A model generated the notes under the pieces. That model made no database searches. It saw nothing but the letters and a program-made list of their open reading frames with translations, and was not told the origin of the DNA. A program made the translations under genes and the position numbers. Of a stretch of 41,588 bases of DNA, positions 2 through 36,971 are shown one piece after another (within the stretch, counting starts at the first letter, position 1; each line of letters starts with the position of its first letter). Location: positions 1 through 41,588 of IMG/VR virus record IMGVR_UViG_3300042320_000234. One strand, 5' to 3'. The DNA comes from a virus.

Positions 2-1627
2 CAAGCAAACCCGTCACGACTTGACGGCACATTGTCTTTAGATGATGTTGACGAATTTGCTAAAGGTGCGGCATTGGATGATTTGTCCAAAATGTTGTAC
101 GACTCATCTGAACGAAACAACCTCATTGATGTTGCTCGTATTGTCATTCCGTTCGGTCAAGCGCAAGCAGAGTTCTTTCGACGCATCAGCCGTATTTACA
201 CGGTAGAAACAGGTGGCATACCGTTACCGAACCTTAACGCTTTGCGCAAAACACAACTCATTGTTGATCGAGGACAAGAAGCCGACCCTGATGGCGATGG
301 TCGAGGGTTCTTTTACACCGACCCACAAACAGGTGAATGGTCATTTGATTACCCGTTTTCGCAAGGGTTCACCCATCTAGCAACCAGCATTATCGGTGGC
401 GGCCCAGGTGTTAAATCAACTTTGCAAGCACCGGTTAAAGGTGTGTTAATGGGTTTGGATGTTAAACCAGGTTTAGGGCCAGTAGCACAAATTAGTGCTT
501 CAGCACTATTGAAAGATATTCCTCAAACAGATTTCATTAAATCAATTATTTTGCCTTACGGCGAAATAGATGTAAAAGGCGAAGGCGGCACATTCCAAGC
601 ATTGTTAAACACGGCTATGCCTGCATGGTTCAAAAAAGTTGAACAAGGTTTCTTTTCTTCGCCTGAATCAGCTGACACATTCGGTAACACTTTCATGGAA
701 ACATATCAAGCGTTAGCGACAACAACCAAATACGATTTAACAACCGACGATGGGCGCGACCAACTGTACGAGGACACCATCAACAAAGCAAGGTTCTTAA
801 CTGTTTTGCGGGGCATTGGACAGTTTTTAGGGCCTTCTCGACCAACAAACAAATTTACTGTGGAAACCAAACAAGGAGATGTTGCGGTAAACCTTTTGTC
901 AATGGAGTTGCGCAAACTGCAACTAGAAGATTATGACAGCGCAATCCCACGATTCTTGGACACTTACGGCGAAGACGTGTTCGTATATTTGTCGGGCAAA
1001 ACTAAAGCCGTTTATGGTGGTTTGCAAGCAAGCAAACAGTTCGGTGACTTTGAACGCGCCAATCCAGCATTGTTCCGCAAATACTCTGGGGTGGCAGGGT
1101 TCTTTGTCGAGGGTGGCACCGATCTTGACTGGCAGGTTTACAGTCGCCAGTTAGAAAAAGGCCAACGTGAACGGCTCACCCCACAAGAAACTTTGGAAGC
1201 AGCACAAAAATATGCGGCGTACAGCCAATACCGTCAAGTACAAGATTTGGTTGGCCCGTATCCGAACGCTGAACAGAAACAGTATTTGCGTGATTTCCGT
1301 GAGTATTTGGGTGAAATGTACCCAGGTTTCACTACCGGCACATTTGACCCGAACAAATTAAAAACCCAAATCGATGAACTGACTAGGGCTGTTAACGATC
1401 CAAGTCTTGCCGACAATGACATCGCTGAAGCGGCTCGACAGTATTTGCAAACCCGTGAAGCCGTATTGGTTGAGGCTACTAACCGTGGTTTGAGTGGCAT
1501 TGACCGTAGCAAGAACGCCGCAGATTTGCGTGGATATCTAAGAGAGTATGCTGTTACTTTGAAAGAACAATATCCTAATTTCGCTAGAATGTATGACCGG
1601 TTACTTTTACAAGAGGTTGATGAATAA
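2..1627 (+). CDS. C-terminal part of a large internal virion protein (5' end outside window)
   Basis: The reading frame is open to the left edge. A TTG at 32 could be read as a start, but the codons before it (from base 2) are open and protein-like, so the gene begins outside the window. About 541 residues are visible. Near the N-terminal side it has DDLSK followed by an IPF segment (IVIPFGQAQAEFF). The 1752-residue protein at 31713 has a similarly placed stretch (SDLSK, then FIPFWIW), so both may share the C-terminal architecture of giant phage internal or ejection proteins. The remainder is helical and charged with no catalytic motif I can see. It is coupled by TAATG to the next gene. Family assignment is inference from architecture and position upstream of virion genes; partial gene status is certain. 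Confidence 0.6.
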   Translation, partial: QANPSRLDGTLSLDDVDEFAKGAALDDLSKMLYDSSERNNLIDVARIVIPFGQAQAEFFRRISRIYTVETGGIPLPNLNALRKTQLIVDRGQEADPDGDGRGFFYTDPQTGEWSFDYPFSQGFTHLATSIIGGGPGVKSTLQAPVKGVLMGLDVKPGLGPVAQISASALLKDIPQTDFIKSIILPYGEIDVKGEGGTFQALLNTAMPAWFKKVEQGFFSSPESADTFGNTFMETYQALATTTKYDLTTDDGRDQLYEDTINKARFLTVLRGIGQFLGPSRPTNKFTVETKQGDVAVNLLSMELRKLQLEDYDSAIPRFLDTYGEDVFVYLSGKTKAVYGGLQASKQFGDFERANPALFRKYSGVAGFFVEGGTDLDWQVYSRQLEKGQRERLTPQETLEAAQKYAAYSQYRQVQDLVGPYPNAEQKQYLRDFREYLGEMYPGFTTGTFDPNKLKTQIDELTRAVNDPSLADNDIAEAARQYLQTREAVLVEATNRGLSGIDRSKNAADLRGYLREYAVTLKEQYPNFARMYDRLLLQEVDE

Positions 1628-2343
1628 TGGCTGAAGATACTAAACCAGTTAACCCCGCAGAAGGGGTACTTGGTGCTATTCCTGGCGGTGGTGTATCTGT
1701 TTCGTTTACTACAGGGTTGCCTGCTGACTATGCTTCCCCGACAGGACAACTTCCGTATTTGCAAAAAGACCCTAAAACGGGCAAGATTACTTCACGTTTT
1801 TACGACATACGAAACGACCCACGGGTACTTCTAAACAACCTTAATGAAACAGAACGCAAAAAAATACTTACAGGTTTAGCAACCAAAATTTCTGGTTATG
1901 ACCCAGGTACAGGTTTTGAAGATAAAGACTATGCAGCTTTCGGTGATCTTTTAACTTACGCCAACCTTGCAGGCAAACCATATTTTCAGGCTTACAACGA
2001 GTTTATGCAACGTGTACCGAACAGTAGTTATGCGAAGAAGGCCCCGTCTATTCGTGTCACTTCACCGGATGATGTGAAAACTTTGGTTCGAAGATCATCA
2101 AGGGAACTGTTGGGCTATGAGATTGATGAGATGACTGCGAACAGGATTGCTGGCGGGTTTAGGCAAATGGAAATTGCTGAGGGCCAACGTCAGGCTGCTG
2201 GTGGTGTGTATGAGGCGGCGACTGATCCTTCGGTGTTTGCCGAGCAGAAGATTCTTCAACAGTTTCAACCTGAGGCACAGAGTTTTGCTGCCGGCAATTT
2301 GGCTGCAATAATGGATGCCCGTATTAAGGCTTTGGGGGCGTAA
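1627..2343 (+). CDS. Hypothetical virion-associated protein (238 aa)
   Basis: The ATG overlaps the previous stop by one base (TAATG), and its own stop overlaps the next ATG in the same way, so it lies in a translationally coupled set. The first 60 residues are Gly/Pro-rich and probably flexible. The rest is helical, ending in a Gln/Ala-rich segment with EGQRQAAGG and a terminal helix. There are no membrane segments, signal peptide or cysteine clusters. Its position between a large internal virion protein and the scaffold-capsid genes suggests an internal virion or assembly protein. I do not recognise a specific family. Confidence 0.55.
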   Translation: MAEDTKPVNPAEGVLGAIPGGGVSVSFTTGLPADYASPTGQLPYLQKDPKTGKITSRFYDIRNDPRVLLNNLNETERKKILTGLATKISGYDPGTGFEDKDYAAFGDLLTYANLAGKPYFQAYNEFMQRVPNSSYAKKAPSIRVTSPDDVKTLVRRSSRELLGYEIDEMTANRIAGGFRQMEIAEGQRQAAGGVYEAATDPSVFAEQKILQQFQPEAQSFAAGNLAAIMDARIKALGA

Positions 2344-3833
2344 TGGCTATTGCAGACGATATTAAAAAACTTCAAGAATTTGTTGATAGTGGCGGTCAAA
2401 GGTTTGTTTACGAAGGTGTGACTTACAATTTAGAAGATGCCAAAACGCTACTTGGTGAACTTAAAGAAAAACAAAAACCAGAAGTTACGGCAGGTAAAGA
2501 AAAAACTGCAAAAATTGAAGAAGCACAACAAGCTGTTAAAAGACTACAAGATGAACTTGAATTAAAATTAAACGTTTTTAGTAAGCCTGAAGAATATGTT
2601 ACTAAAGTTTCAGTAGAAGAAATACGCAAAGCACAAAGCAATTTGCAATTTGCAAATGAAAGTCTTACTCGTTTAACAAGCCAAACTGATAAGGCTTTAA
2701 TTTCCCGCAACTTGGTTCTTAATACTCGTGCCGAGGATGCCCGTTTGAAAGCGGCAAATGCGGAAGCCAAAAAATCTGGGCAACAAATAGTTGAGCCAAC
2801 CAAAACGGAAACCTTACCAACTGCGTCAACGGGGGGCGGCACAGATGGGGCAAAGGTTTTAAAAAGAGCAGTTGATGCGAAACTTGTTGAACTTAATTTG
2901 CCTGATACACCGGAGAACCGTAAGGTTGCTCGACAGGCAGTAAAGACTGATAAAACTGCTGCGCTTGGTGCCGAGGATAAATCGTGGGAGCCGTTATTTA
3001 AAGAGAACTATCCGCAATACAGTTGGATGTTTACCGATCTTGACCGCACTAAATATGCGGATGTGTTTACTTTGTTCTCTAAAGCGATTGACCCAAAAAC
3101 CGGTAAACAGATAATGACTGATGAAGAATTTGATCGAAGATACATTGGTACTTCGTTTTACCGTGGGCTTGAAAGTAGTAAAAAGGGTCGAGAGTTGTCT
3201 GCTGCTATCGGTAACTTTAGTTGGGGTTCAGGTAATTTGGCAAAGTTTTTGACAAAAGCCACACAGTTTGGGTATGAGGGCGACAACCTCAAACAGCAGG
3301 CTTACGCTGAACTGTTTAGCAAAACCAATGGCAAGTATGTGAACGATCTTGCGGTGAACGAGGTTCGTGCTTCGACACCGTATTTGTCTTTGAAGGATAT
3401 TGGTAAACAATACTTTTTTGATTTTGCCGATTCGCAAGTTGAGCAGGTTTTGGCTGGTACGCCGAACGCTGATGGTGTGGCTGTTTCTCGTGATGATTTG
3501 ATTCGTAAAGCTCGTCTTGCTGCGAAAGCAATGTATGGGCATTTGTCGGAACAGATTGATGCCGGTTTGACGTTAGAGGATTTGTCTGCTTCGTATAAGG
3601 AGAAGGCTGCAAAACTTTTGGAGTTGGACCCGAACACGATCAATTTTGCTACAGATTTTAGTGATGCTTTGAATTATCGTAAGGATGGGCAGCCGCGTGT
3701 GTTGTCGATGTCTGAGTGGGAGACTGAGTTGCGTACTAACGATAAGTATAAGTATTCGTTTACTAAGCAAGCTAATCAGGATGCTACGAGTATTGGGTTG
3801 GCTATTGCTCGTGCGTTTGGGAAGGTTCAATAA
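2343..3833 (+). CDS. Putative internal virion protein with N-terminal coiled coil (496 aa)
   Basis: Residues about 45-130 form a long charged coiled coil, followed by a Thr/Gly-rich linker (about 150-170). A helical C-terminal domain follows, ending in a short helix (IGLAIARAFGKVQ). It starts and ends with TAATG or near-TAATG coupling to its neighbours. Base composition shifts gently along the gene, the 3' third using more T-ending codons, but there is no break in frame. Large helical coiled-coil proteins next to giant internal proteins are typical of ejection or inner-core proteins of short-tailed phages. That role is inference; no enzymatic motif is visible. Confidence 0.55.
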   Translation: MAIADDIKKLQEFVDSGGQRFVYEGVTYNLEDAKTLLGELKEKQKPEVTAGKEKTAKIEEAQQAVKRLQDELELKLNVFSKPEEYVTKVSVEEIRKAQSNLQFANESLTRLTSQTDKALISRNLVLNTRAEDARLKAANAEAKKSGQQIVEPTKTETLPTASTGGGTDGAKVLKRAVDAKLVELNLPDTPENRKVARQAVKTDKTAALGAEDKSWEPLFKENYPQYSWMFTDLDRTKYADVFTLFSKAIDPKTGKQIMTDEEFDRRYIGTSFYRGLESSKKGRELSAAIGNFSWGSGNLAKFLTKATQFGYEGDNLKQQAYAELFSKTNGKYVNDLAVNEVRASTPYLSLKDIGKQYFFDFADSQVEQVLAGTPNADGVAVSRDDLIRKARLAAKAMYGHLSEQIDAGLTLEDLSASYKEKAAKLLELDPNTINFATDFSDALNYRKDGQPRVLSMSEWETELRTNDKYKYSFTKQANQDATSIGLAIARAFGKVQ

Positions 3834-4960
3834 TGTCTGATATCGGTAGTTTTACTTTCCCTGATCTTGGTATTGAACCGCTTACACCGGAACAGTTGGC
3901 GGCTGTTGACCCTGCACAGTTGGCAGCGGTTGAAACAGCGTTAAACATTCCTGGCGCAGAACGAGTAACCCAACCTGCACTACGGCAACAACAAGAAGAA
4001 ACGGTGACAGAAAGCGAAGCTGAACGTATTGCGCGTTTGGATCGTGAGTCTGCTGAACGTATTGCTAGGCTTAATCGTGAATCTGCTGCGCTTGACCGTG
4101 ACTCAAGACGGTTTACACCATCACAAGACGCAAAGAATACCATCAAATCTGTATTGGCGACCTATGGATTAGGCGATCTTTCAGACTATTTGTACGGTGT
4201 CTATGCACGACAAGAAGTAGATATCAATAATCCTGACGCACTAATTTTTGCTATTCGTGAACAAGACGCATATAAGAAACGGTTTGCAGCAAACGCGGCA
4301 CGAGCCAAAAAAGGTTTAGCCGAACTAGACCCAGCATCTTATTTGGAACTAGAAAACAGTTACCGTCGACTAATGCAATCTAATGGATTGCCATCAGGTT
4401 TCTACGATCAAACAGACGATTTCACCCGACTGCTTGAAGGCGACGTGTCGGTATCAGAATTACAGGATCGTATACAAAACGGTTTTCGAGCAGTACAGGA
4501 TGCTGACCCTGAAGTTAAACGGCAGATGCAAGAACTGTACGGTGTGAACGAAGCGGGGTTGGCTGCTTATTTTCTTGATCCTGAACGGGCTGCACCTATT
4601 TTGACTCGTCAAGCTGAAGCTGCAAAAGTTGCTGCACGAGCCAAAGAACAAGCAGGATTCCAGTTGACGGCATTAAGCGCAGAAGATTTGATTGCACGTG
4701 GATACACGCCTGATGAAGCACAACAAGCGTTCACCAAAGCGGGACAGTTGGCTGGTCTTTATACGGAGATGGGTAGCGAAGAAGCCCTTACTGGAGCACA
4801 AAAAATTGGGGCTGCTTTCGGTTACGATGTTGCCGCAATACAGGCTTTGGAAGAACGTAAACGTGCGCGTTTAGGCGAATTCCAGGGTGGTGGCGGGTTC
4901 GCTAGAACGACCGGTGCAACATCTGGAACCGTTGAAACAGGTGTCGGCGAAGCACAATAA
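3833..4960 (+). CDS. Putative internal virion or structural protein with ESAERIARL repeats (375 aa)
   Basis: It starts by overlap with the previous gene (ATG at 3833 sharing the TAATG). Residues about 57-95 contain near-tandem heptad-like copies of ESAERIARL(D/N)R, a helical coiled coil. The middle region, with a YLELENSYRRLM stretch, GLPSGFYD and LYGVNEAGLAAYFLDPERA, resembles a protein I associate with actinobacteriophage virion modules, but I cannot name a family. The C-terminus is Gly/Thr-rich and probably disordered. It is the last gene before the capsid promoter at 4969, so it closes one transcription segment. The exact role is unknown. Confidence 0.6.
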   Translation: MSDIGSFTFPDLGIEPLTPEQLAAVDPAQLAAVETALNIPGAERVTQPALRQQQEETVTESEAERIARLDRESAERIARLNRESAALDRDSRRFTPSQDAKNTIKSVLATYGLGDLSDYLYGVYARQEVDINNPDALIFAIREQDAYKKRFAANAARAKKGLAELDPASYLELENSYRRLMQSNGLPSGFYDQTDDFTRLLEGDVSVSELQDRIQNGFRAVQDADPEVKRQMQELYGVNEAGLAAYFLDPERAAPILTRQAEAAKVAARAKEQAGFQLTALSAEDLIARGYTPDEAQQAFTKAGQLAGLYTEMGSEEALTGAQKIGAAFGYDVAAIQALEERKRARLGEFQGGGGFARTTGATSGTVETGVGEAQ

Positions 4961-4968
4961 CCATATTG

Positions 4969-4999
4969 TTGACATCCCTGTATAGGGGTGTGCTACACT
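4969..4999 (+). promoter_or_regulatory. Sigma-70/SigA-type promoter upstream of scaffold-capsid genes
   Basis: A perfect -35 TTGACA (4969-4974) is followed after 19 bases by an extended -10, TGCTACACT (4991-4999). The 19-base spacer is longer than optimal, which the TG extension could offset. It lies in the longest non-coding gap of the window (4961-5112) immediately upstream of scaffold and capsid genes. Transcription would start near 5006 and give a leader of about 105 bases. Host RNA polymerase use is inferred from the consensus match. Confidence 0.65.
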
Positions 5000-5070
5000 C
5001 TGTTTGTTCCCAAAAGAACACCGGTAGAGAATCCCCGACTTTATCGTGAAACAAGGGTGAGTTATGCAGC

Positions 5071-5093
5071 CGTCACGATCCTCCAATGTGACG
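5071..5093 (+). promoter_or_regulatory. Leader hairpin before the scaffold gene
   Basis: CGTCAC (5071-5076) pairs with GTGACG (5088-5093) around an 11-base loop containing CCTCC. The loop can pair weakly (four bases) with the scaffold ribosome-binding site AAGGAG at 5101-5106. The stem is real by inspection. Any control function is speculative and weaker than for the capsid leader. Confidence 0.35.
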
Positions 5094-5112
5094 TGGGCAG
5101 AAGGAGTGAGCC

Positions 5113-5562
5113 ATGTCAAACGTCAACGAGTTCGATGACGAGACTGAAGAAACACCGAAAGACCCTGTGCGGGCGCGGATGCGTCAACTTGAAAAAGAGT
5201 TGAAAGCAAAAGAGCAAGCACTTGTCGAAGCAGACGCTATTAAACGCGAGTATGCGTTTATGAAAGCGGGAGTTCCAATGGATTCCCCGATGTCTAAATA
5301 CTTCGTCAAAGGTTATGACGGCGAGTTCACACCCGAAGCAATTCGGTTGGCTGCAGAAGAAGCGAATCTCATCCACAAAGAAGCGCAAAGTGCCCAAGTT
5401 AAATCTGAGGCAGATGCGTGGAACCGTCTTACAAAGGCGCAACGTGCGGGTGAAACCAGCGAACCTGTTGCTGATTGGAACACGAAACTTAATCAGGCTC
5501 GAAATCAAGACGAAGTGATGCAGATTTTGGCTCAAGCAAGGCAAGAAGCAGAAAACATCTAG
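5113..5562 (+). CDS. Capsid scaffolding protein, module A (149 aa)
   Basis: It is preceded by a strong ribosome-binding site (AAGGAG at 5101-5106). The protein is small and acidic to amphipathic. It has a charged coiled coil at about residues 20-47, then AFMKAGVPMDSP and YFVKGYDGEFTPEAI, a pattern seen in small scaffold-like proteins that precede capsid genes in actinobacteriophages. A Gln/Ala/Glu-rich helical C-terminus follows. It lies 44 bases upstream of the major capsid gene and downstream of its own promoter, the standard place for a scaffold. Scaffold function is inferred from size, helicity and position. Confidence 0.75.
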   Translation: MSNVNEFDDETEETPKDPVRARMRQLEKELKAKEQALVEADAIKREYAFMKAGVPMDSPMSKYFVKGYDGEFTPEAIRLAAEEANLIHKEAQSAQVKSEADAWNRLTKAQRAGETSEPVADWNTKLNQARNQDEVMQILAQARQEAENI

Positions 5563-5571
5563 CCCGCAGGA

Positions 5572-5590
5572 CTCCCGTTCCTGTCGGGAG
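5572..5590 (+). promoter_or_regulatory. Capsid leader hairpin with loop complementary to the capsid ribosome-binding site
   Basis: CTCCCG (5572-5577) pairs perfectly with CGGGAG (5585-5590). The seven-base loop TTCCTGT (5578-5584) is the exact reverse complement of ACAGGAA (5600-5606), the ribosome-binding site directly in front of the capsid ATG at 5607. A pseudoknot would mask that site. Stem, loop and complementarity are directly visible; a regulatory role is inference. Confidence 0.5.
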
Positions 5591-5606
5591 AAAGCAATAA
5601 CAGGAA

Positions 5607-6566
5607 ATGTCAAAAACACAAACAAGCAGCCTTCTCACAGATCAGGTTGCATTTGATCGGATTGCGTATTTTGCGCTTCGTAGCGAACTTTTGTTCGATG
5701 CGGTCGCAGACGTTATGCCGGTCGCACAAGCAATGCCAGGTTCATCGGTCAAGTTCACAATTTTCAACGATCTTGCTGAAAAGACTTCGACACTTACTGA
5801 GGACACAGACGTAACTCCAGTAGTTATGGGCGACAGCCAAGTTGAAGTAACGTTGGAAGAATACGGCAACGCCGTAAACACAACAGCGAAACTTCGTGGC
5901 ACATCGTTCCTTGATGTGGATTCGGCAGCCGCTAACCTCGTTGGTTACAACGCAGGTATCTCGGTTGACGGTGTTATCCGCGAGGTACTGTCCGCAGGAA
6001 CAAACGTTGTCTACGGTGGTGGCGGTTCAACAACCCCAACTGCTCGCACCGAAATTGAAGCAACGGACATCATTGAAGCGAACGACATCCGCAAGGTTGT
6101 TGCTGCACTTCGCAAAGCGAACGCAGTTTCGTTCAATGGCATGTACATGGGTTACATTCACCCAGACGTTTCGTACGATCTTCGCAAGGAGACAGGCGTA
6201 GCATCGTGGCGTGACCCGCACGTGTACAGCGATCCAGCAGGCATCTACAACGGTGAAATCGGCGCTTTTGAAGGTGTCCGTTTCATTGAGACTCCACGAG
6301 CCAAAATCTTTGAGAACGCCTCAAACGGTTCAGGATCGACTGGAACAGTTGATGCTTACTGCACACACATCGCAGGCCGTCAGGCTTTGGCGAAGGCACA
6401 CTCAATCGTTGACGGTAACGGCGCGTTCCCACGTGTCGTACGCGGTCCAGTAGTTGATGTGTTGTCACGTTTCCAACCTGTCGGTTGGTACTGGCTCGGT
6501 GGCTATGCTCGATTCCGCGAGGCTTCGCTTCGTCGTATCGAGTCGGCTTCAAGCCTCGGCGCCTGA
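5607..6566 (+). CDS. Major capsid protein, module A (N4-gp56-like, HK97 fold; 319 aa)
   Basis: This protein would form the icosahedral shell. The region around residues 81-96 (VTLEEYGNAVNTTAKL) and the overall plan match the N4-gp56 family of HK97-fold capsid proteins. That plan is an N-terminal helix, a beta-rich core with acidic stretch, a GGG-rich loop near 140, and a C-terminal HIAGRQALAKAH region. The start at 5607 is set by ACAGGAA just upstream. Codon use is GC-richer than in the second half of the window and uses many preferred C-ending codons, as expected of a highly expressed gene. A perfect terminator follows at 6596. A second, dissimilar capsid protein is encoded at 22714, which is unusual. 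Confidence 0.88.
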   Translation: MSKTQTSSLLTDQVAFDRIAYFALRSELLFDAVADVMPVAQAMPGSSVKFTIFNDLAEKTSTLTEDTDVTPVVMGDSQVEVTLEEYGNAVNTTAKLRGTSFLDVDSAAANLVGYNAGISVDGVIREVLSAGTNVVYGGGGSTTPTARTEIEATDIIEANDIRKVVAALRKANAVSFNGMYMGYIHPDVSYDLRKETGVASWRDPHVYSDPAGIYNGEIGAFEGVRFIETPRAKIFENASNGSGSTGTVDAYCTHIAGRQALAKAHSIVDGNGAFPRVVRGPVVDVLSRFQPVGWYWLGGYARFREASLRRIESASSLGA

Positions 6567-6595
6567 ACCATATAGTTCAGTTGTAAGTTGAGAGG

Positions 6596-6630
6596 GGGGT
6601 CAGGCTTTTCCCCTGCCTGACCCCTTTTCT
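6596..6630 (+). terminator. Rho-independent terminator after the module A capsid gene
   Basis: A perfect 10-base-pair stem, GGGGTCAGGC (6596-6605) with GCCTGACCCC (6615-6624), encloses a 9-base loop and is followed by TTTTCT. With the promoter at 4969 it delimits a scaffold-capsid transcript. Confidence 0.92.
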
Positions 6631-6661
6631 CGTTCTGCTATTATTTCGTGTGAGGTAACAA

Positions 6662-7024
6662 ATGTCTATTTCTAATTACGCAGAAAACAAATTTTTGGAT
6701 GCTCTCCGCGCACAATCGTTTTCGGTTAGCAACGTTTACGCAAAACTGCACACAGGTGATCCTGGTGAAGCAGGTACAAGCAATGCTGCTACGGAAACAA
6801 CTCGTAAAGAAGTTACGTTTAGTGCGGCTTCAAGCGGTTCTATGGCTGCTTCGGCAACTATCGAATGGACCAATGTTTCCACTACGGAAACTTATTCGCA
6901 TTTTTCTTTGTGGGATAATTCAACTGCGGGTAACTGTTTGTGGACTGGCGCTTTGTCGTCGTCTGCGGCTGTTACTGCCGGTGACACGTTTCAGATCACC
7001 GCGTTAACTCTCAGCCTCGATTAG
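6662..7024 (+). CDS. Small beta-rich virion protein, tail or decoration (120 aa)
   Basis: A GAGGTAACAA ribosome-binding region precedes the ATG. It begins with NYAENKFLDAL and continues with beta-strand patterns, Ser/Thr/Ala-rich, closing with FQITALTLSLD. The pattern of N-terminal ENK-x-LD, KLHTGDPGE and a terminal LTLSLD strand is shared by a widespread class of small phage structural proteins (mycobacteriophage gp80-like beta sandwich) found near tail or head genes. It lies directly after the capsid terminator. Structural role is likely; whether it sits on head or tail cannot be told from sequence. Confidence 0.6.
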   Translation: MSISNYAENKFLDALRAQSFSVSNVYAKLHTGDPGEAGTSNAATETTRKEVTFSAASSGSMAASATIEWTNVSTTETYSHFSLWDNSTAGNCLWTGALSSSAAVTAGDTFQITALTLSLD

Positions 7025-7038
7025 GGTGAGGTAGCCCT

Positions 7039-8115
7039 ATGGCTACTGGAGTCACCGATTTTACTTTCGGGTTCACGGACACCCCTGGGTTCAGGGAATT
7101 CGCCGAGGTACCTAATTATGCGCGGCGCAAAGTTATTTATTTTGCGTCACCGTTTGCGAACACTCAAGGTTTCTTTCGTGGTGTAACCGCACGTACCGCC
7201 ACAGGTGCAGGCACAGGTACACAATCGGCGTCAGGTCTACGGATAGTTGGGCGTACGGCGTCAGCGTCAGGGTTAGGTTCATCATCAACAGCGATTGTGC
7301 TTGTCGCCAAACGTACGGCATTGGGGTCTGGTACTGGTTCTAGTGTCGTTGAAGGTGAACGTGTTGTTCCCCGATCCGCTACTGCTAGTGGTCAGGGTAC
7401 TACTGCTGGTGGTGCTACTGGTTTGCATATTGCGCCCCGTACCGCTACGGGTTCTGGTACAGGTTCGTCTGTTGCTACCCGTAACGTCGTTCGTGCTTTC
7501 ACAGCGTCAGGTTCAGGTACGGGTTCTCAGACTGCTACAGGTTTGCGTCTTGTTTTGCGTACCGCTACTGCTTCAGGCACAGGTACATCATCAAACACGT
7601 TTGAGGTCACACGCGCCCGTACAGCGTCAGCGTCAGGGTTGGGGTCATCTAGTGCCACCCCGCTTCATATCGCCCCTCGTAGCGCAACAGGGAACGGCTC
7701 AGGGGCATCCAGTACCACGAGTTTCACTACAAGGTCCCGTACCGCCACAGGCTCAGGTGCCGGTACCCGCAGCATTGTTTCGGCCCGTGTTTGCCAGCGC
7801 ACAGCCACAGCCACAGGTACAGGCACACAGAGCGCCACACAGACCAAACTGTTGCTGTTCCGTACACCGTCAACAACCGAGATACGTTCAGCCGACAGGT
7901 TTGATACAAGTATCCCTGGTCGACTGTTCCGTTACGCCGACCCACAATACGCTGGTGTGAACGTATACAAACTGGTTGACGGCACATTCACCGAAGTTGA
8001 ACAACGCGAATACGATCAGGTGTCAAAAGTTTATTGGGGTGGCACCAAGAACTTTGTAACCCAAGAAGAAAAAGACGAACTTGTATCAGCAGGCTATGGT
8101 AGTTACGTAACATGA
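7039..8115 (+). CDS. Repetitive Ser/Thr/Gly-rich tail protein with C-terminal AGYG domain (358 aa)
   Basis: An N-terminal segment (1-50) is followed by eleven consecutive repeats starting near residues 52, 72, 92, 112, 134, 154, 174, 194, 214, 234 and 254. Each has a core such as RTATGSGTGSS and a short hydrophobic strand. The period is exactly 20 residues, with one 22-residue spacing, and one repeat replaces the leading Arg by Phe. Residues about 275-358 form a separate domain ending SKVYWGG...AGYGSYVT, which is repeated in the next gene. The repeats suggest a beta-solenoid or fibrous shaft. The Ser/Thr density and two adjacent glycosyltransferase genes make it a candidate glycosylation target (inference). 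Its stop overlaps the next ATG. Confidence 0.65.
   Translation: MATGVTDFTFGFTDTPGFREFAEVPNYARRKVIYFASPFANTQGFFRGVTARTATGAGTGTQSASGLRIVGRTASASGLGSSSTAIVLVAKRTALGSGTGSSVVEGERVVPRSATASGQGTTAGGATGLHIAPRTATGSGTGSSVATRNVVRAFTASGSGTGSQTATGLRLVLRTATASGTGTSSNTFEVTRARTASASGLGSSSATPLHIAPRSATGNGSGASSTTSFTTRSRTATGSGAGTRSIVSARVCQRTATATGTGTQSATQTKLLLFRTPSTTEIRSADRFDTSIPGRLFRYADPQYAGVNVYKLVDGTFTEVEQREYDQVSKVYWGGTKNFVTQEEKDELVSAGYGSYVT
7192..7857 (+). repeat. Eleven in-frame repeats of 60 bp (one of 66 bp)
   Basis: The DNA behind the protein repeat has a 60-base period with recurring variants of CGTACCGCTACTGCTTCAGG. The copies are diverged and the reading frame is preserved throughout, so selection acts on the protein. 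Copy number could change by recombination or be miscounted by short-read assembly. Confidence 0.8.
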
Positions 8116-8396
8116 GTATCTTTAACCCACCTACAGACGACTTCGTGGCGCTCGGTATCCCACCGAACGAGTTCGCATCCGAAGAAGTCCGTTTGGCTTT
8201 CAACCTGTTCAAACATTTCGACAACGAACCACGGGGCAGAAACGTGTTCTTGTTGACTGACGGCACGTTCACAGAAAACGAACCGAACGACATCACTACG
8301 ATCAGCAAAGTTTATTGGGGCGGGTCAGATAACATTGTTGACGCCGCCGAAGTTGCGGCTTTAACATCGGCAGGTTACGGCGCATATATCAGTTAG
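8112..8396 (+). CDS. Tail-associated protein, paralogue of the preceding gene's C-terminal domain (94 aa)
   Basis: It starts with an ATGA overlap. Residues about 44-94 align with residues 308-358 of the preceding protein: NV-x-x-L-x-DGTFTE, then SKVYWGG, then SAGYG-x-Y at the C-terminus. The upstream 40 residues are also loosely alignable. The AGYG-terminated domain is, from general knowledge, common in actinobacteriophage tail proteins. A free-standing copy next to a fused copy suggests duplication, with both binding the same partner or forming a hetero-oligomer. Function is otherwise unknown. Confidence 0.6.
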   Translation: MSIFNPPTDDFVALGIPPNEFASEEVRLAFNLFKHFDNEPRGRNVFLLTDGTFTENEPNDITTISKVYWGGSDNIVDAAEVAALTSAGYGAYIS

Positions 8397-8402
8397 GGGA
8401 TT

Positions 8403-8636
8403 ATGAAACACAGGGAAACACATCCGAATCTAGACGTTGAAGGCTGCTTCGCTTGCCGTATCAGCCATGTCCGTGTGTCAGGTTCGGCGATGCCGACACG
8501 TCACAATGTCGCAGATTTGAACGCTAAAGAACGTGTACTTGACAAAGATTTGGATGCCTATAAACGGATACGCAAAACGGGTGGGCAGCCAACAAAAATT
8601 GATGGCTCAGCGAAACTAGAAAAGATCGCCGATTGA
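8403..8636 (+). CDS. Small Cys-x2-Cys protein of actinobacteriophage type (77 aa)
   Basis: Preceded by AGGGGATT. Residues 7-33 carry HPNLDVEGCFACRISHVRVSG and end SAMPTR. The Cys15-x2-Cys18 pair followed by SAMPTR closely resembles a small protein I associate with actinobacterial phages, usually located among structural genes. Two cysteines alone cannot form a full zinc site, so dimerisation or a partner would be needed. The C-terminal half is basic. It ends with TGATG overlap into the glycosyltransferase gene. Function unknown. Confidence 0.6.
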   Translation: MKHRETHPNLDVEGCFACRISHVRVSGSAMPTRHNVADLNAKERVLDKDLDAYKRIRKTGGQPTKIDGSAKLEKIAD

Positions 8637-10890: not shown

Positions 10891-10891
10891 T

Positions 10892-12045: not shown

Positions 12046-12048
12046 CCT

Positions 12049-24210: not shown

Positions 24211-24213
24211 AAT

Positions 24214-26803: not shown

Positions 26804-26822
26804 AGGAACGGATACCCATATT

Positions 26823-27071
26823 ATGATGAGCAATTCAATACCTAGTTACGCTTTATACGGTAGACCAGTGGACCATTATAGGCTTTCTGCTGTTGCTGAT
26901 GCGCCGTTGGCGGCTGCCAGCGGCGAATATTTGGGTCGTGGCAACAAATGTATGGGCAACGACGACACCTGTGGCGCTAACCGTATGAAGGGGCAAGAAT
27001 TGTGTGTCGGGCATTACCGTCAGGCTGTTAATTTGGCTGAGTTGGCTGAACAAATTGAATCCGAGGAATAA
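26823..27071 (+). CDS. Cys/His small zinc-binding-like protein (82 aa)
   Basis: AAAGGAACGG lies 13-22 bases upstream. The start is at the first of two ATGs (26823); the second (26826) is equally possible. The C-terminal half has Cys43, Cys50, Cys61 and His64 (NKCMGNDDTCGA and ELCVGHYRQ), a likely CCCH zinc site. Similar NKC-x-GNDDTC...LC-x-GH proteins lie near connector genes in other phages, from memory. Its stop lies two bases before the connector ATG. Confidence 0.6.
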   Translation: MMSNSIPSYALYGRPVDHYRLSAVADAPLAAASGEYLGRGNKCMGNDDTCGANRMKGQELCVGHYRQAVNLAELAEQIESEE

Positions 27072-27073
27072 CA

Positions 27074-29400: not shown

Positions 29401-29402
29401 CA

Positions 29403-29702
29403 ATGGCTACACTTACTATTCCACATAGTTTTACAAACGGCACAGCCGCTATTGCGACTGAAGTTAATGCAAACTTTGTTGCTATTAAAACGTTTACTGA
29501 AGCGTTGGCGGCTGGCACAAACATTGACGCTGGGGCTGTAAACTCGGCTGCAATGTCTGCAACTGGTGTGGTTGCTGGTGTTTACACAACAGCAAACATT
29601 ACAGTTGATTCGGCTGGTCGTTTAACAGCAGCCAGTACTGGTACAAGTGGTGTAACTGGTGACAGTGACCAGTTGGTGTTGGGTTCGCAGGTGTTCGGTT
29701 AA
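29403..29702 (+). CDS. Small fibre-like protein with shared 17-residue C-terminal tag, module B (99 aa)
   Basis: AAAGGATAACA precedes the ATG. It starts with LTIPHSFTNGTAAIATEVNA, continues through NFVAIKTFTEAL (a common N-terminal virion-attachment segment of phage fibre genes), then Ala/Thr/Gly repeats. It ends SGVTGDSDQLVLGSQVF plus Gly. The final 17 residues match those of the protein at 13921. It follows the nozzle gene directly, as the module A counterpart follows its tail gene. Confidence 0.7.
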   Translation: MATLTIPHSFTNGTAAIATEVNANFVAIKTFTEALAAGTNIDAGAVNSAAMSATGVVAGVYTTANITVDSAGRLTAASTGTSGVTGDSDQLVLGSQVFG

Positions 29703-29845
29703 TGGCTTGGTCTGTTAACTCGTTGTCTTTGCTGACAAGTGTGGACAAAAATGTTTTACAAAACATTTTTGTGTCACTTCAGGCTGAACTAGAACGTTTA
29801 CAAAAAGAAATAGACGAATTAAAACAGTTGAAAGCAATTAGGTAA
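29702..29845 (+). CDS. Small coiled-coil protein (47 aa)
   Basis: A TAATG overlap with the previous stop supplies the start. The protein has a short N-terminal segment (MAWSVNSLSLLTSVDKN) and a long heptad helix (LQAELERLQKEIDELKQLK). It is too short for many gene finders, but its exact coupling to the gene before and five-base spacing from the next support it. A fibre trimerisation helper or internal scaffold helper are possible. Confidence 0.6.
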   Translation: MAWSVNSLSLLTSVDKNVLQNIFVSLQAELERLQKEIDELKQLKAIR

Positions 29846-29849
29846 CATT

Positions 29850-30287
29850 ATGTCAATGATAGACGCATATTATGGCGATTATGGGATGGCTGAAGCATCT
29901 GCCCGTAAACGCCGTTCCGCAACCTCAATAGCAAACCAACAGGCTGCGTTTCTGGGACAACAACGTGGCACACGCAACATAGCAGATTTGACACGTAAAC
30001 TTACCGAAGGTTTTCGCCCACAAATGGCTAGTTATGGTAAACGTGGTTTGGCTGGTCCTGGTGTGGCTTCAGGTATTCAACGTAAAGGTTTAGAACGTTA
30101 CGCTGCCGATATGCAACGTGGAATATCTGACGAAACACAAATGCTACAGGATGAACAGAACCGTATTGCTATGAGTGAAGCAGCATCTCAGGCTGACCTT
30201 GAGGATTATTTGACGCAGTTACGTTTACAAAAACAAAGAGATATTATTAGTTCGGCTACTGCCCTTAAGCAGTATGCTGCCTATTAG
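29850..30287 (+). CDS. Putative internal virion protein (145 aa)
   Basis: TTAGGTAACATT precedes the ATG. It is mostly helical, Gln/Ala/Arg-rich, with ANQQAAFLGQQRGTRNIADL, a Gly-rich hinge (YGKRGLAGPGVASGI) and then a helix with EDYLTQLRLQKQRDI. Similar small helical proteins sit between tail nozzle and large internal proteins in short-tailed phages. No specific family assigned; the virion-internal role is from context. Confidence 0.6.
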   Translation: MSMIDAYYGDYGMAEASARKRRSATSIANQQAAFLGQQRGTRNIADLTRKLTEGFRPQMASYGKRGLAGPGVASGIQRKGLERYAADMQRGISDETQMLQDEQNRIAMSEAASQADLEDYLTQLRLQKQRDIISSATALKQYAAY

Positions 30288-30295
30288 GGGGTGTT

Positions 30296-31669
30296 ATGTC
30301 GTTTAAATTAGTTAATGGCAAATGGGTACAAAGTGGTCAACTTCCGCCTAACCCATATTTGCAACAACCGCTTCCTGTTCCACCATTAAATTTGGATGCT
30401 TTGTATAAAAAATATAATGAAGATGTTCTTGCGTGGCAAAAAGAAAACAAAAAAACCGCAAATGTTATGCCGCCTGATTCGTGGTTAAAACCACGTCAGG
30501 CGTTGCTGCAGGGACAGATAGAAGCACAAACGTCAGCACGACAAGAAATAGTTGACCGCAACAATGTTATAATGTCACAAAACTTTTCAACAAAACAAAC
30601 ATTGTTGGATAATGCACGTGAGGACAAATATCGTCAAGCACAATTAGATTTACAACGTGCTGCTGCTGGTACTGCTGCTGCTGTTCGTGCGCAAGAACGT
30701 ATAGATGCTTTGGCTAAAGAAAAACGTGACCGTGAAGCACAAGTTGCAGCAGAGGCACGTGCGCAACAACAACAAGTTGATGCAGAAAAACGTCAAATAG
30801 CACGTGAAGATGCGTTAGCAGCCGAAACTAGACTTCGTGGTATTGCGGGTGGTAACGCTGCTGCTGATTATCTGTTTTCACAAGCAGGAAAACGAACCAC
30901 TGAAGGTTTGATAAGAATTAAAGAACTTTATGACCCAATGAAAACTATGGCTGATAGCGAATTTGCTACACAACTTGAACTATTGGCTAATGATTTTAAA
31001 ACTGCACGTGGACAAGTTACGGGTGCGGGTGAAGATTTCTTAAAAAACTTTGTTGATAGTGTCGCTTATAAAGATGTTCCTATTAGTACTTTGGAAGCAC
31101 CAACAAATCCTTTGTTGGCTGCATTACAATCTCAAGGTGCTGGTACTGGCGAGGTGCAGGCTATAAGCGATTTTGCTAAACAGTTTGCTACTAGTACATC
31201 AGATTTGGGTAAATGGGCTGCTAGTCAATTGAATGTTGGGCAACAAAACTTTGACATTGCTAGTAAACGTGCTGCTACTGGTGCTACTACTGCTGCTTTG
31301 CAGGGTTTGGCTGGTCAGGAACCACGTATTAAGGCTGGTATGCAGGCTGACCTAAATAAACGTTTGCAAGATATTGCGTTGCAAAAAGCACAAGCAAGTG
31401 AAAACGTTTATGCTAGACAGGCAGCGCAAGAAGATTCGGCTGCAGCAATAAGGGCGCAAACTATGCAACAGTATGGTTATGTGCCAAAACCTGAAGAACC
31501 TAAAGAAACTGAAAAACCTAAAGAAACTGAAAAACCGCCAGCCGATGATGCGGCTGCGGCTGCGGCAGCAGCGAAAAAGAAGGCTGAAGAAGAAGCCGCT
31601 GCTAAGGCTGCTGCTCAACGAAACGAAAGCATAGCGCAAGTTAAAGCAATGCGGCGAGCGGAGTTTTAG
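30296..31669 (+). CDS. Large helical internal virion protein (457 aa)
   Basis: AGGGGGTGTT precedes the ATG. A Pro-rich N-terminus (GQLPPNPYLQQPLPVPP), a long charged coiled coil (about 100-185), a middle domain and a Pro/Glu/Lys segment with PKETEK repeated twice lead to an Ala/Lys/Glu helix at the C-terminus. Reading frame is intact. Such long helical proteins next to a giant protein resemble the inner-core or ejection proteins (gp14-gp16 type) of podoviruses. The role is inferred from composition and position. Confidence 0.6.
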   Translation: MSFKLVNGKWVQSGQLPPNPYLQQPLPVPPLNLDALYKKYNEDVLAWQKENKKTANVMPPDSWLKPRQALLQGQIEAQTSARQEIVDRNNVIMSQNFSTKQTLLDNAREDKYRQAQLDLQRAAAGTAAAVRAQERIDALAKEKRDREAQVAAEARAQQQQVDAEKRQIAREDALAAETRLRGIAGGNAAADYLFSQAGKRTTEGLIRIKELYDPMKTMADSEFATQLELLANDFKTARGQVTGAGEDFLKNFVDSVAYKDVPISTLEAPTNPLLAALQSQGAGTGEVQAISDFAKQFATSTSDLGKWAASQLNVGQQNFDIASKRAATGATTAALQGLAGQEPRIKAGMQADLNKRLQDIALQKAQASENVYARQAAQEDSAAAIRAQTMQQYGYVPKPEEPKETEKPKETEKPPADDAAAAAAAAKKKAEEEAAAKAAAQRNESIAQVKAMRRAEF

Positions 31670-31712
31670 GAACAGGTATTCTTATTATAGGATACTAATT
31701 TAGGGACTTTTC

Positions 31713-34700
31713 ATGGCTGTAACACGTTCACCGTTTGTTAAGAAACAAACACTTGACCGACCTACTGGATATGGCTTTGATGATGCAGGTAAGGCAATAT
31801 ACACGTTCAAAGATGGTACGTCACGTATCTTAAGACCGCAACGTGACACCTCTCAAGATGAACAAGATTTTGCTGATGCGCAAAATGAATTAGAACAAAA
31901 CATTTCTAAAGCACAATCTAAAGCGTTTGAAGTTGGCAAAGACAGCATCGTTGACCAACTTGGCAATATTGCAATGGGTGGTGCGCCTAAACAGATTGGT
32001 GGTGGCTGGTTTAAGAAAGTGTATGATATTGCTACACTTCCTTTAAATTTGACCAGTAGAGAAAAATGGTTGTCGCTTGGTGAGGTTAGTAAGCCTGTTA
32101 GGTCTACTTTGCAATCTGCGTTAAATGAAGTTGCTGATGGTTTAACTGTTCTTACTGGCAGAACAAGAATTGACGCACGTGGCAATAAAGTTAAACCTTC
32201 TATAAAAGAGTTTGTTAGCAATGCCCGTAATTTTGATTTTCAACCTTTTGGCGAAGGTGGAACAGTTGGAAACGCTAATGCGCTTCCAAACAAAATAATG
32301 AATTTTGTTACAAATACTTTAACTGACCCTGCAACGTATGTAACACTTCCAGCAAGTGCTGCTGGTAAAATGGGTAAATTTGCAACAGTTCTAAAAGGAC
32401 TTGAGTTACAAAAAAAGTACCCTAATCTAATTGATGATGTCGTATTGGATAATCTTGGTCGCAAAGGTCCTGTTGCTTTTCCAAAAGAAGTTAGAGATGC
32501 TGAAGGTATTTTTGTCGGTGTCAAGTATATGGGTAAGGAAATTCCAAACTCTAGTGTTTTAGCAGAAATTTGGGCTGATACTGCTGGTGCAGTTAGCGCC
32601 AAAGCAGGCGACATATTTTTCCGCAAATATCCTAAAGCGCAAACACTTATTTCTAAATCCAAAACCAAACCCCTTGTCCTTGCTGGATTAGGTCGTAGAC
32701 ACTTATCTGGAAAAGAATGGTATGACACCTACTTACAAGGTTTAGCACATTATTCTGCCAACACTGTTGGCAAAAGTACTGCCTTGTATGCTAAAGGTGT
32801 TATTTCGGGTGAAATAACCAACACGGCTATGGCAGTAAAAGGTTTGCCTGACGATGAACAAAAACTTTTAGTTCCATTAATTGAAAACCGTTCTGGTGCG
32901 GTGACAAACAATCCTTTAACACAAGAAATTGTTGAAGGTTTTAAGGTTTGGGATGGTGCGCAACGTGATGTTATAAACGCTAAAATAAATGAACTTTCAG
33001 TTAAATATGGCATTAATGTTAAAGAAATGGGTTTTGTTGAAGACCATATTTATCATTCTATTACTGATGATGCGAAAGAATTTTTGCGTAGCCAAGGCGG
33101 AAATAAAAAAACTGGTCGGGCAAAATATGCAAAATATTTTGCGGACTATAAACTTACTGCTGATGAAATTAAAACTGGCAGAGGTATCGCTAGTTACCGT
33201 AAAGTTCGTGGACCTGAACTTAACCCCGTAACTGGTGTTACTGAATATTCTGAGTTTTTGGGACAAAAAGTTTTAAAAGGCGACATTACTGAAATTAATG
33301 AAATTGCCATGAAAGAACTTGGTGTTCCTTGGTTTAAAACAGATTTGCCTACAATCATTGATGACAGTATTGCTTCTTATAGTCGTATGCACGGCAGGTA
33401 TGACTATGTTGAACGTTTGTTAGATTTTGGTCCAGAGGTTATTAAACCTTTGATTAAACAGGCTGTTGATGACGGTCCAATTGCTGATACGTTATATAAA
33501 ATTGTTACGGACTTAACTTCTGAATATCAAAGATTAACTCCAAGGGTTAAACGAAATGTTACTGCTGGCTTGGCGGGCACTAGAGAAGGTTTGGCAACGG
33601 AACTCCAAGAGGTTTCTGATGTTGCTCGTGCAGTTTTGTCGGGCAAAGCATCTTACCGCAAAGCGGTAAATGATGAGACTTTAAAGGTTGTTTCTAGCAT
33701 TGACGCAATTATTGAACGTATGCAAGAACTTGCAGAACAGGCTGTGAAGGTTTCACCTGATAAAAAAGGTGAGTTTAACAATTTGTATTTAGCAACCATG
33801 CGTCATGCTGCGGAAATGAAAGAAGCGTTGCTTAATGGCGAAGGTGACCGTTTCTTGTCTATGCAAGAGTTGCGTTACGAATATGTTTCTAGGTTTCCCA
33901 ATAATGATGATTGGCAAGGCAAATCGGCTGAATGGATGGCTGAACGCATTGTGCGTGACGCTGGTGGTGGTGATGCAATAGATGCAAGAGAAGTTTTCCG
34001 TCAGAAAACTCATGACACTTTAATTAATTTGCGTGACGAAATTCCTGCTGGCAACCCTGAAGCAGCACGTGTAATTGACGAAGCAATATTGGCGAACGAA
34101 ACAGAGTTAGAAGCGTTGGCTCGTATAAATGTTGCTAAAGATAATGCGTCTTATGCTACTGAGGGTTTGATTTATGGTTTTCCACCAGGTTTTAGTGACG
34201 AACCTATTCCGTTTCAACTTTATACAACTAAACCTATTGATAATGAATTTGGTACGTTTGCGCAAATGAAAGATGCCGTTGTTGGTCATGCTATACCTGA
34301 ACAAGATTTGTTGGATTTGCGTGACCCAACTACTTTTGCAAATTTTCTTAATCCTGAGTTTTGGGCTGATGATTTAAACAGGGCTTGGGCTGAAGTTGGT
34401 GTGCCTGATATGATGCCAATGGATGTTGTTGACAATATGCTTGCTAACAATGGTTTTATAGACCCAGAGTTTATTCGTGCTTATCCAGAAAAAGCGGAAT
34501 GGTTAATGGGTATGTATGATATGCAAACTAAAGTTGATACACTTTTAGAAACCGCTGACGATGTTTTGCCAATGTCTAATGAAGAACTTAATGATTTCTT
34601 TACATGGTTTGCCGATATGCAAGAACGTCTTGCTGGGTCTTTAAGTCCTGATAATGCTGAAAGTGTTGGTAAGGTTGTTGCAAATAAATGGTTTGGTGGA

Positions 34701-36971
34701 GTTGTGGACGATGCTGCCGCAAATGGTTATAAAGGTGCTTTAATGCCTTTAACACGCATTTTTGATGACTTTGAACCTTCTTTGAATGAGTGGGCGGTGT
34801 TGTTGCCGAGCAACACACCTGCGTTTAAAGTTGGTGATTCTATTGCTTCGCCTTGGCAGTTGTTAGAAAATAATAGTTTTATGAAAACCATTATGGACGA
34901 AACATTAGAAGCCACCCATGTAGCAAAGACAGATGTAAAGAAGTTGTTGCAACAAAACGGTATTGAGGTTGGGCAAACGTTAGCGGAACGTGCAAAATTG
35001 GATGAGCAGATTGCGGAATCAACTAAAGTTGATAATGCTTTCAAGGCTTTAATGAATTTGCGTAGCACAGATAGTGTTCAAGTTGGTGGCAAATCTGTTC
35101 CCAAAACAGTTATTCTTAACAAACTTGCAACACTTGACAGTTTTTTTAGTAATGCTTATAGCAAAATTGACCAAGATATTTTGCGTGAAATTGAAAAAAC
35201 TTTTGGTCCAGAAGAACTGCAAACATTGCGTTTAGATTATAAACAACGTTTACCTATGTTGTTAAACGAGGTTAAAGTTTTGGAAACTTGGACTGACGAG
35301 GTTGGTTCGGCGTTGGAACAAGAAGTCAATGACTTTTTGTTGCTGTTGTCCAATAAACCGCCTAAGGGTTCTACGGCTGCTAGTAATGCGGCTTGGTCTA
35401 AACATGTTGAGAAAAGTCTTGAGTCGTCTTTGTTATTGCAAGATTCACCTGCAGTTAAAGAGGCTTATGACCGTGTAACGAAAATTTTGCATGCCGATGA
35501 GTTGGCGTTGGCTAAAATTGAATCAGAGATTCCTCAAGCGTTTAGTTTTTATGCGCAAGCAAAAATGTTGGGTATTCGTGGGCAAAAGTTTATTGATGTT
35601 GCCGAACAAGGTTGGGAAGAACTTGCTGGTTTGGGATTGCAAATCCCAAAGGAAGCAAAAGAACAGTGGATGCCTGCTATAAAGAAGTTAAGTGATGCGG
35701 GCGAGTATGGTGCGTTTTTAAGAAACTTTGATAAAATGAACGCATATTGGAAACGTTGGGTTACTGCTAGCATTGGTTTCTTTGTGCGTAACGGCATGTC
35801 TGCAACGTTTATGAATTATGCTGATGGTGTTACTAATGACGCTATTAGTACTGGCATAAAGTGGGCGGCGGCGCAAAATGATACTGTTGGTAAAAGATTA
35901 AATAATAAAAACTTTGCTAACTGGATGGCAAGAGCAGGCATTACAGACCCACAAGAAATGGCAAAAGCAGAGTGGGCAACTAAAGTTGTTATGGCTACTG
36001 GTTATGGTGTTAATGATGATTTCGCTGCACCGACAATTGGGCGATTGGCTCAAGTTACGACAGATAAATATATTGGTTTTTTTCAAAACAAAAACAGTTA
36101 TGTTGAACGTGCTGTTCGTTTGCCAATGGCAATAGATTCGTTTAACAAGGGGCATACGTTTGATGAGGCAGTTGCACGTATTTCTCGTGTACATTTTGAT
36201 TATAGCGATTTGTCTAAGTTGGATGAAACCGTAAAGCGGTTTATTCCGTTTTGGATTTGGACTTCCCGAAACATTCCGCTTCAAATGACACAAATATTAA
36301 CTCGCCCTAAAGCGTATTATGAGTATCAAAGAGTTCAAGAAGAACTGCCTGTCAACGCTAACTTGATGATGCCTAAATGGATTAACGAACGTGAACCATT
36401 AGGTTTGGGTAATGGGTTGGCTAATTGGGTGTTGACACCCGATTTGCCTCATATTCGTATGAAGGCGATGTTTGAAGGGTTTGCTGACCCACAACAATTG
36501 TTGGGTCAAACTGGTTTGCCAATTAGATTGCCAGCAGAACTTATAGCGGGTAAAAAGTTTGGAACTTTTGTTCAAGACTTTAATGCCTATGGGAAACAAA
36601 AAGAAGTTAGAGGTCCATACGAAACTTTGATTGCTAAGGCTTTAAACAGATTTGTTAACGATGGTCAAATTACTACTGACAAATACGGTAATTGGGTTAT
36701 GGATGAAAGAGTTACCCATATTGTTGAATCTGTTTTCCCAATTATTGCGCAAATTAACAGATTGACTGGTGGTGCAACTGGCGGTAAAGAAGCATTAGAG
36801 GAACGTATGTTGTCCAGTATTTTTAATTATGCTGGTATACCTGCTCGTGAGATTGGTCCTGTGCAACAAAAACAGGAAGCGCAACGGCGTAATAAAGAAG
36901 TGGAAGATTTGCTTAAACAATTAAAACAATACGGTTACGAACAGGGTATTGGAATAACTGAAGAACCTTAA
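31713..36971 (+). CDS. Giant internal virion / DNA-ejection protein (1752 aa)
   Basis: This is the longest gene in the window, starting after TAGGGACTTTTC. It is largely helical, acidic to neutral, with no HExxH, polymerase or glycosidase motif that I can see. A conserved-looking stretch near residues 1345-1380 (WKRWVTASIGFFVRNGMSA) is hydrophobic and typical of the large phage polyvalent/internal proteins. A later FIPFWIWTSRNIPLQMTQIL is the segment that resembles the partial protein at the left edge. Position after other internal proteins and at the end of the late operon fits an ejection protein. The stop overlaps the convergent early gene. Confidence 0.65.
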   Translation: MAVTRSPFVKKQTLDRPTGYGFDDAGKAIYTFKDGTSRILRPQRDTSQDEQDFADAQNELEQNISKAQSKAFEVGKDSIVDQLGNIAMGGAPKQIGGGWFKKVYDIATLPLNLTSREKWLSLGEVSKPVRSTLQSALNEVADGLTVLTGRTRIDARGNKVKPSIKEFVSNARNFDFQPFGEGGTVGNANALPNKIMNFVTNTLTDPATYVTLPASAAGKMGKFATVLKGLELQKKYPNLIDDVVLDNLGRKGPVAFPKEVRDAEGIFVGVKYMGKEIPNSSVLAEIWADTAGAVSAKAGDIFFRKYPKAQTLISKSKTKPLVLAGLGRRHLSGKEWYDTYLQGLAHYSANTVGKSTALYAKGVISGEITNTAMAVKGLPDDEQKLLVPLIENRSGAVTNNPLTQEIVEGFKVWDGAQRDVINAKINELSVKYGINVKEMGFVEDHIYHSITDDAKEFLRSQGGNKKTGRAKYAKYFADYKLTADEIKTGRGIASYRKVRGPELNPVTGVTEYSEFLGQKVLKGDITEINEIAMKELGVPWFKTDLPTIIDDSIASYSRMHGRYDYVERLLDFGPEVIKPLIKQAVDDGPIADTLYKIVTDLTSEYQRLTPRVKRNVTAGLAGTREGLATELQEVSDVARAVLSGKASYRKAVNDETLKVVSSIDAIIERMQELAEQAVKVSPDKKGEFNNLYLATMRHAAEMKEALLNGEGDRFLSMQELRYEYVSRFPNNDDWQGKSAEWMAERIVRDAGGGDAIDAREVFRQKTHDTLINLRDEIPAGNPEAARVIDEAILANETELEALARINVAKDNASYATEGLIYGFPPGFSDEPIPFQLYTTKPIDNEFGTFAQMKDAVVGHAIPEQDLLDLRDPTTFANFLNPEFWADDLNRAWAEVGVPDMMPMDVVDNMLANNGFIDPEFIRAYPEKAEWLMGMYDMQTKVDTLLETADDVLPMSNEELNDFFTWFADMQERLAGSLSPDNAESVGKVVANKWFGGVVDDAAANGYKGALMPLTRIFDDFEPSLNEWAVLLPSNTPAFKVGDSIASPWQLLENNSFMKTIMDETLEATHVAKTDVKKLLQQNGIEVGQTLAERAKLDEQIAESTKVDNAFKALMNLRSTDSVQVGGKSVPKTVILNKLATLDSFFSNAYSKIDQDILREIEKTFGPEELQTLRLDYKQRLPMLLNEVKVLETWTDEVGSALEQEVNDFLLLLSNKPPKGSTAASNAAWSKHVEKSLESSLLLQDSPAVKEAYDRVTKILHADELALAKIESEIPQAFSFYAQAKMLGIRGQKFIDVAEQGWEELAGLGLQIPKEAKEQWMPAIKKLSDAGEYGAFLRNFDKMNAYWKRWVTASIGFFVRNGMSATFMNYADGVTNDAISTGIKWAAAQNDTVGKRLNNKNFANWMARAGITDPQEMAKAEWATKVVMATGYGVNDDFAAPTIGRLAQVTTDKYIGFFQNKNSYVERAVRLPMAIDSFNKGHTFDEAVARISRVHFDYSDLSKLDETVKRFIPFWIWTSRNIPLQMTQILTRPKAYYEYQRVQEELPVNANLMMPKWINEREPLGLGNGLANWVLTPDLPHIRMKAMFEGFADPQQLLGQTGLPIRLPAELIAGKKFGTFVQDFNAYGKQKEVRGPYETLIAKALNRFVNDGQITTDKYGNWVMDERVTHIVESVFPIIAQINRLTGGATGGKEALEERMLSSIFNYAGIPAREIGPVQQKQEAQRRNKEVEDLLKQLKQYGYEQGIGITEEP

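Follow-up and report, generated by a model that had tools for sequence, protein, structure and literature searches.

Introduction

Virome assembly is known to produce chimeric contigs at near-identical regions, a fault described by Roux et al. (2017, PMC5610896). Here, we analyzed a virus record from IMG/VR (IMGVR_UViG_3300042320_000234), whose full 41,588 bases we refer to as the window. Taken at face value, this contig is a phage with genes for two heads. It is very probably an assembly chimera and should be flagged as such, so that it creates no false lineage link in gene-sharing networks or taxonomy. It resembles the chimeric contigs described by Roux et al. (2017, PMC5610896) in that two distinct genomes appear to have been joined in assembly. 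In contrast to what that account describes, the switch and both parents are readable here from public contigs, and we infer the cause in the sample rather than simulate it.

The two gene sets of the window (kit A on the left, kit B on the right) have different relatives among described phages. Within the phage collection, the closest named relative of kit A is Streptomyces phage Kumquat (Beephvirinae, Manuelvirus; OR193800), whose major capsid protein (MCP) is 46.8% identical. Kumquat and kit A have the order terminase, portal, giant gene and MCP in common, and the Kumquat connector, tail and fibre match those of kit A (BLASTP E 2e-10, 2e-53 and 3e-13, respectively). After the MCP, however, the Kumquat order is connector, fibre, tail, whereas that of kit A is connector, tail, fibre. 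The Kumquat fibre (486 aa) matches the A fibre over 95 N-terminal residues only and lacks the C-terminal tag discussed below, and its giant gene matches that of kit A weakly (24%, E 2e-4). The kit B MCP is 40.3% identical to that of Podoviridae sp. ct52p938 (MW202803), and 32.2% and 31.0% identical to those of Myxococcus phages Mx8 and Mx9, which were compared by MCP match alone. The gene order in MW202803 is terminase, head-to-tail joining protein, MCP. One capsid gene is present within 39.6 of the 44.8 kb of Kumquat and within 27.0 of the 42.1 kb of MW202803.

Relatives used for comparison

Relatives are IMG/VR contigs retrieved with each capsid protein. For lineage A we used the best 80 of 223, and for lineage B the best 80 of at least 597. 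We label contigs or loci with L and whole records with G; four occur under both labels (L083 in G021, L004 in G002, L150 in G038 and L143 in G036). Whole-record searches covered 42 of the 160 records (20 A and 22 B), comprising every record of at least 25 kb plus contigs L003 and L006. The longest relatives of either lineage are about 38-41 kb.

Two dissimilar head-tail gene sets on one contig

Every gene named in the initial annotation is an open frame at its given position, and the presence of two dissimilar head-tail gene sets on one contig is confirmed. The phage A part (1-15776, plus strand) contains the end of a giant protein, a putative scaffold, an MCP, tail and fibre genes and the start of a Gly-rich gene. 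The phage B part (16010-41588) contains a peptidase, an SLT gene, a terminase, a portal, a scaffold, an MCP, tail genes and a giant protein, after which the genes at the right end lie on the minus strand, with a DnaB-like helicase at the window edge.

PHROG and Pfam matches agree with the annotation's count of two MCP genes, one terminase and one portal, all on the plus strand. The MCP of phage A (5607-6566) matches PHROG 1357, major head (E 1e-83), and Pfam Phage_capsid_3 (E 1e-52), and that of phage B (22714-23652) matches PHROG 9953, major head (E 2e-75); the two capsid genes thus represent different families. The phage B terminase large subunit (17998-19599) matches PHROG 2 and others, and the phage B portal (20048-21781) matches PHROG 156 (E 2e-33). 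The two annotated scaffolds fared differently. Scaffold B (frame 21800-22681, in-frame ATG at 21905) matches PHROG 3927 (E 6e-13), while the gene at 5113 matches PHROG 7813, of unknown function, and is a putative scaffold by position only. Likewise, the proposed connector (11161 and 27074), tail (12049 and 27787) and fibre (13921 and 29403) pairs hold up as reading frames, and their PHROG labels are just structural, tail or unknown. The left edge was correctly read as the end of a large internal protein, as positions 2-1627 (plus strand) encode the C-terminal part of the phage A giant protein, with a 100% match inside a 1568-aa ORF (15446-20152) of G002. Its counterpart in phage B is an ORF of 1752 aa (31713-36971, plus strand) with a 100% match in G021.

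All-against-all BLASTP of the 50 window proteins (E <= 1e-3) returned a single match between the A and B parts, a 17-residue peptide at the C termini of the two fibre proteins. The pairs are not recent copies, as had been noted, and we rejected recent duplication as their origin because no A-B pair extends beyond this peptide. GC content is 0.478 left of the junction and 0.416 right of it, which is weak evidence because A records span 0.482 to 0.555.

Two other features lie among the phage A late genes. Two glycosyltransferases (8633-10449; Pfam Glycos_transf_2 and GT4 types) occupy the interval between capsid and connector, with homologues of the second in 42/80 A loci and of the first in 12/80. 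The late gene at 7039-8115 encodes repeated RTATGSGTGS-like units in its protein, and its DNA contains repeat families D2 and D5.

Relatives carry one kit each

The initial annotation suggested searching for other contigs with both modules. None was found: both capsid genes occur together in 0/42 whole records, and the core virion genes of both kits (11 A and 12 B genes queried) occur together in 0/160 loci. MCP A is present in 20/20 A records and 0/22 B records, and MCP B in 0/20 A records and 22/22 B records. The annotation had also stated that the two-module reading would fail if each module occurred alone with its own terminase in related genomes, and this is the case. The phage B terminase was detected in 21/22 B records and 0/20 A records, the one miss being G036, a 29.9-kb record whose locus L143 starts inside the portal gene. 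The phage A terminase (query from G004; PHROG 38, E 2e-62) was detected in 18/20 A records and 0/22 B records, the two A records without a match being the contigs L003 (16.5 kb) and L006 (13.0 kb). A single terminase for both kits is therefore not what these relatives have, since 18/20 A records possess their own.

Gene order also differs between the lineages. A-type records have terminase, portal (PHROG 104 in G004, E 1e-16), giant gene, putative scaffold, MCP, tail and fibre, whereas B-type records have terminase, portal, scaffold, MCP, tail, fibre and giant gene. Exact end repeats occur in 2/8 joined records, G020 (A, 38,344 bases, repeat of 123 bases) and G026 (B, 38,112 bases, repeat of 77 bases), which suggests that these are closed single-kit genomes. 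The B-type record G038 (37,302 bases) matches MCP B partially at each end of the contig (residues 1-306 and 235-312), the pattern expected of a circular genome whose ends overlap.

At the level of single genes, none from 17016-31713 was found in the 80 A loci, which extend 10 kb from the capsid gene and may therefore stop short of the terminase B position, a test that the whole records cover. From 2-13921, the B loci contained a single gene, the small one at 10534 (1/80). Six window genes were present in both sets of 80 loci (counts for A and B, respectively): 10534 (23, 1), 14434 (25, 18), 14760 (3, 1), 15348 (3, 1), 15552 (5, 5) and 16467 (8, 25). The remaining window genes were confined to one set. 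Genes resembling 10534, 17016 and 17579 are likewise present in A and B members of the eight longer joined records.

The parent switches inside a Gly-rich gene

We compared the window with its closest contigs base by base. Contig L003 (A) is identical to it over 1-16009 and then has 14 mismatches in 16010-16228, the 219 bases up to the L003 end. On the other side, L083 (B) has 37 mismatches in 15624-15776, and its first 139 bases are unaligned; between 15777 and the right edge of the window, its whole record G021 agrees at all but two positions (29259 and 41462). By these mismatch lists, the window follows L003 up to 16009 and L083 from 15777 onward. The stretch covered by both matches, 233 bases long (15777-16009, plus strand), is identical in the window, L003 and L083/G021. 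Two parent contigs thus account for the two parts of the window, and the change from one to the other is sharp and falls within this block, which is contained in the 14.4-18.0 kb interval that had been flagged as suspect. The block sits within a gene (15552-16451, plus strand) that matches Pfam Gly_rich_2 (PF21722, E 4e-17) and is probably adhesin-like.

Two other causes of the join were rejected. The fibre ends at 14.4 and 29.7 kb have similar DNA, but L003 passes 14.4 kb without a mismatch. The repeats listed within the window are for the most part low-complexity ones of Gly codons (15.6-16.3 kb), and the switch block is shared between two genomes.

Other A contigs follow the window less closely. 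L004 (in G002) is 98.4% identical over 1-3835 and 4010-8640 and 95.4% identical over 9329-14789. The identity of L006 to the window is limited to 3822-16009, preceded by 35 mismatches in 3185-3821, and L005 differs at 12 positions within 1-6988; these differences indicate that A strains vary.

A fork at this block is visible in another assembly. Two contigs with the sample number 3300042521 meet here: L006, on the A side, runs up to 16009, and L181, on the B side, begins at 15883, so that they overlap by exactly 127 identical bases. L181 matches the window without a mismatch over 15883-20322 and then has nine mismatches up to 20641. Published descriptions of metaSPAdes pipelines give k-mer sizes of up to 127 (PMC12697132), in one case for a JGI set with 2x151 reads (PMC7171226). 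The switch lies in 233 bases that the parents share, longer than a k of 127, a value taken from these pipelines that may differ from the window's own. Within IMG/VR, sample 3300042521 showed neither the right-hand A allele nor the left-hand B allele, so a hybrid in that sample is formally possible. Scanning for a 44-base segment of the block retrieved four contigs, of which 0/4 link A-left to B-right. The join is therefore absent from the relatives at every level searched (0/42 records, 0/160 loci and 0/4 block contigs), although such collection scans may omit records very near the window and could hide a sibling contig with the same junction.

Each parent also has a continuation of its own. 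L184 has 127 identical bases in common with the L003 end, is 85% identical to the A-type record G004 over 3.4 kb, and goes on to encode another Gly-rich protein, a 529-aa protein and a peptidase. Terminase B was not found in the 5.3 kb of L184. On this evidence, L184 is likely the true right side of phage A; L003 and L184 carry different sample numbers. Their overlap corresponds to window positions 16102-16228, about 220 bases beyond the first fork; assemblies appear to break up in the Gly-rich gene at two or more sites. G021 has 14434-, 14760- and 15348-like genes of its own at its far end, where a further Gly-rich gene begins. Upstream of window base 1, L003 reaches 320 bases further and L005 reaches 616. 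The annotation had advised looking there for a second terminase, and G002 indeed has its own terminase upstream, plus a 584-aa ORF in place of the portal. The A gene order puts terminase and portal before the giant gene, so the phage A terminase and portal absent from the window most likely lie upstream of base 1.

Weighing the explanations

The initial annotation had offered three readings of the contig, namely a phage with two virion kits, capture of a second phage's late module, and a contig chimera. The counts over 42 records strongly support the last and speak against the other two, which we rejected against the whole records. Judging from sequence comparison, we are highly confident that the window is a chimera created in assembly from two phages, each of a different and dissimilar lineage. 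The Gly-rich genes of the parents have in common 233 identical bases, more than a 127-base k-mer and more than one 151-base read, and an assembler could enter this stretch from the left flank of phage A and exit on the right flank of phage B. Both phages would have been present in the window's sample, where presumably no DNA molecule with the junction existed. The contig is then no evidence for a two-capsid virus, because two ordinary phages would have been joined at short common DNA. If the two heads were instead alternatives by design, kept across relatives, the intact reading frames in both modules would be expected, but the absence of any whole record with both capsid genes (0/42) and of any locus with both core sets (0/160) makes this extremely improbable. 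We give next to no credence to a stable lineage B phage that captured the phage A late module as an insert. The single visible terminase and portal would fit an insert, yet the left side continues past base 1 in the A contigs L003 and L005, and the close relative G002 has its own terminase and the 584-aa ORF upstream. Furthermore, the B record G021 (37.7 kb) lacks the A capsid and has no A virion gene at E 1e-5 save for the 17-residue peptide.

A real hybrid is the remaining alternative, and we consider it unlikely. Here, a single crossover in the common block between co-infecting phages would give a genome with both virion kits or a short-lived cointegrate no larger than about 79 kb (estimated from two genomes of 38-41 kb). 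If true, a recent natural crossover inside the common adhesin gene would produce one replicating molecule with two complete head-tail kits. Such a crossover could occur because A-type and B-type phages have adhesin DNA in common, as the 233 identical bases illustrate; moreover, cassette genes move between the lineages, with A and B labels intermixed in the tree of the 14434-type protein (below). Against a hybrid, A-left is joined to B-right in none of the other contigs found, and each of the 42 whole records has a single kit. In addition, each half of the window is nearly identical to a separate parental contig, and another assembly has a k-mer-sized fork at the point of the switch.

An adhesin cassette and a fibre tag common to both lineages

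The region in which the assembly chimera would have formed belongs to a cassette (14434-17998; 14434-type, Gly-rich, 16467-type, VanY peptidase and SLT genes) with members in both lineages. A tree of the 14434-type protein was built from 38 distinct sequences (22 A and 16 B) by a quick search without bootstraps, excluding rows with less than 70% coverage or with a stop. The A/B label requires seven changes on this tree, at least three of them forced by strongly supported branches, compared with a mean of 12.5 for shuffled labels. The label is thus clustered, with several exchanges. These sequences indicate that cassette DNA is exchanged between dissimilar phages. The near-identical adhesin DNA of dissimilar lineages is a mark of exchange in nature and, at the same time, a trap for assemblers.

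The otherwise dissimilar fibres of the two kits end in a common C-terminal tag of 14 residues, GDSDQLVLGSQVF[AG] (14377-14421 and 29658-29702). The product of the short fibre gene that follows the large tail gene terminates in [QH][VI][FY][AGS] in 23/25 A and 17/27 B homologous ORFs. Across loci L002-L161, this ending occurs in 41/2271 stop-ended ORFs of at least 70 aa, and 40/41 are from the two fibre families; the motif was chosen post hoc from sequences already seen, and the loci are redundant. A narrower motif is present in 2/80 A loci and 5/80 B loci. When profiles of the tagged fibres (22 A and 21 B rows) were compared, the last 17 columns alone aligned (probability 78%, E 1.8e-5), and the profiles without their last 16 residues gave no alignment (E 0.64). 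As a guess, the tag is possibly a docking tag for exchangeable adhesins that both lineages have in common.
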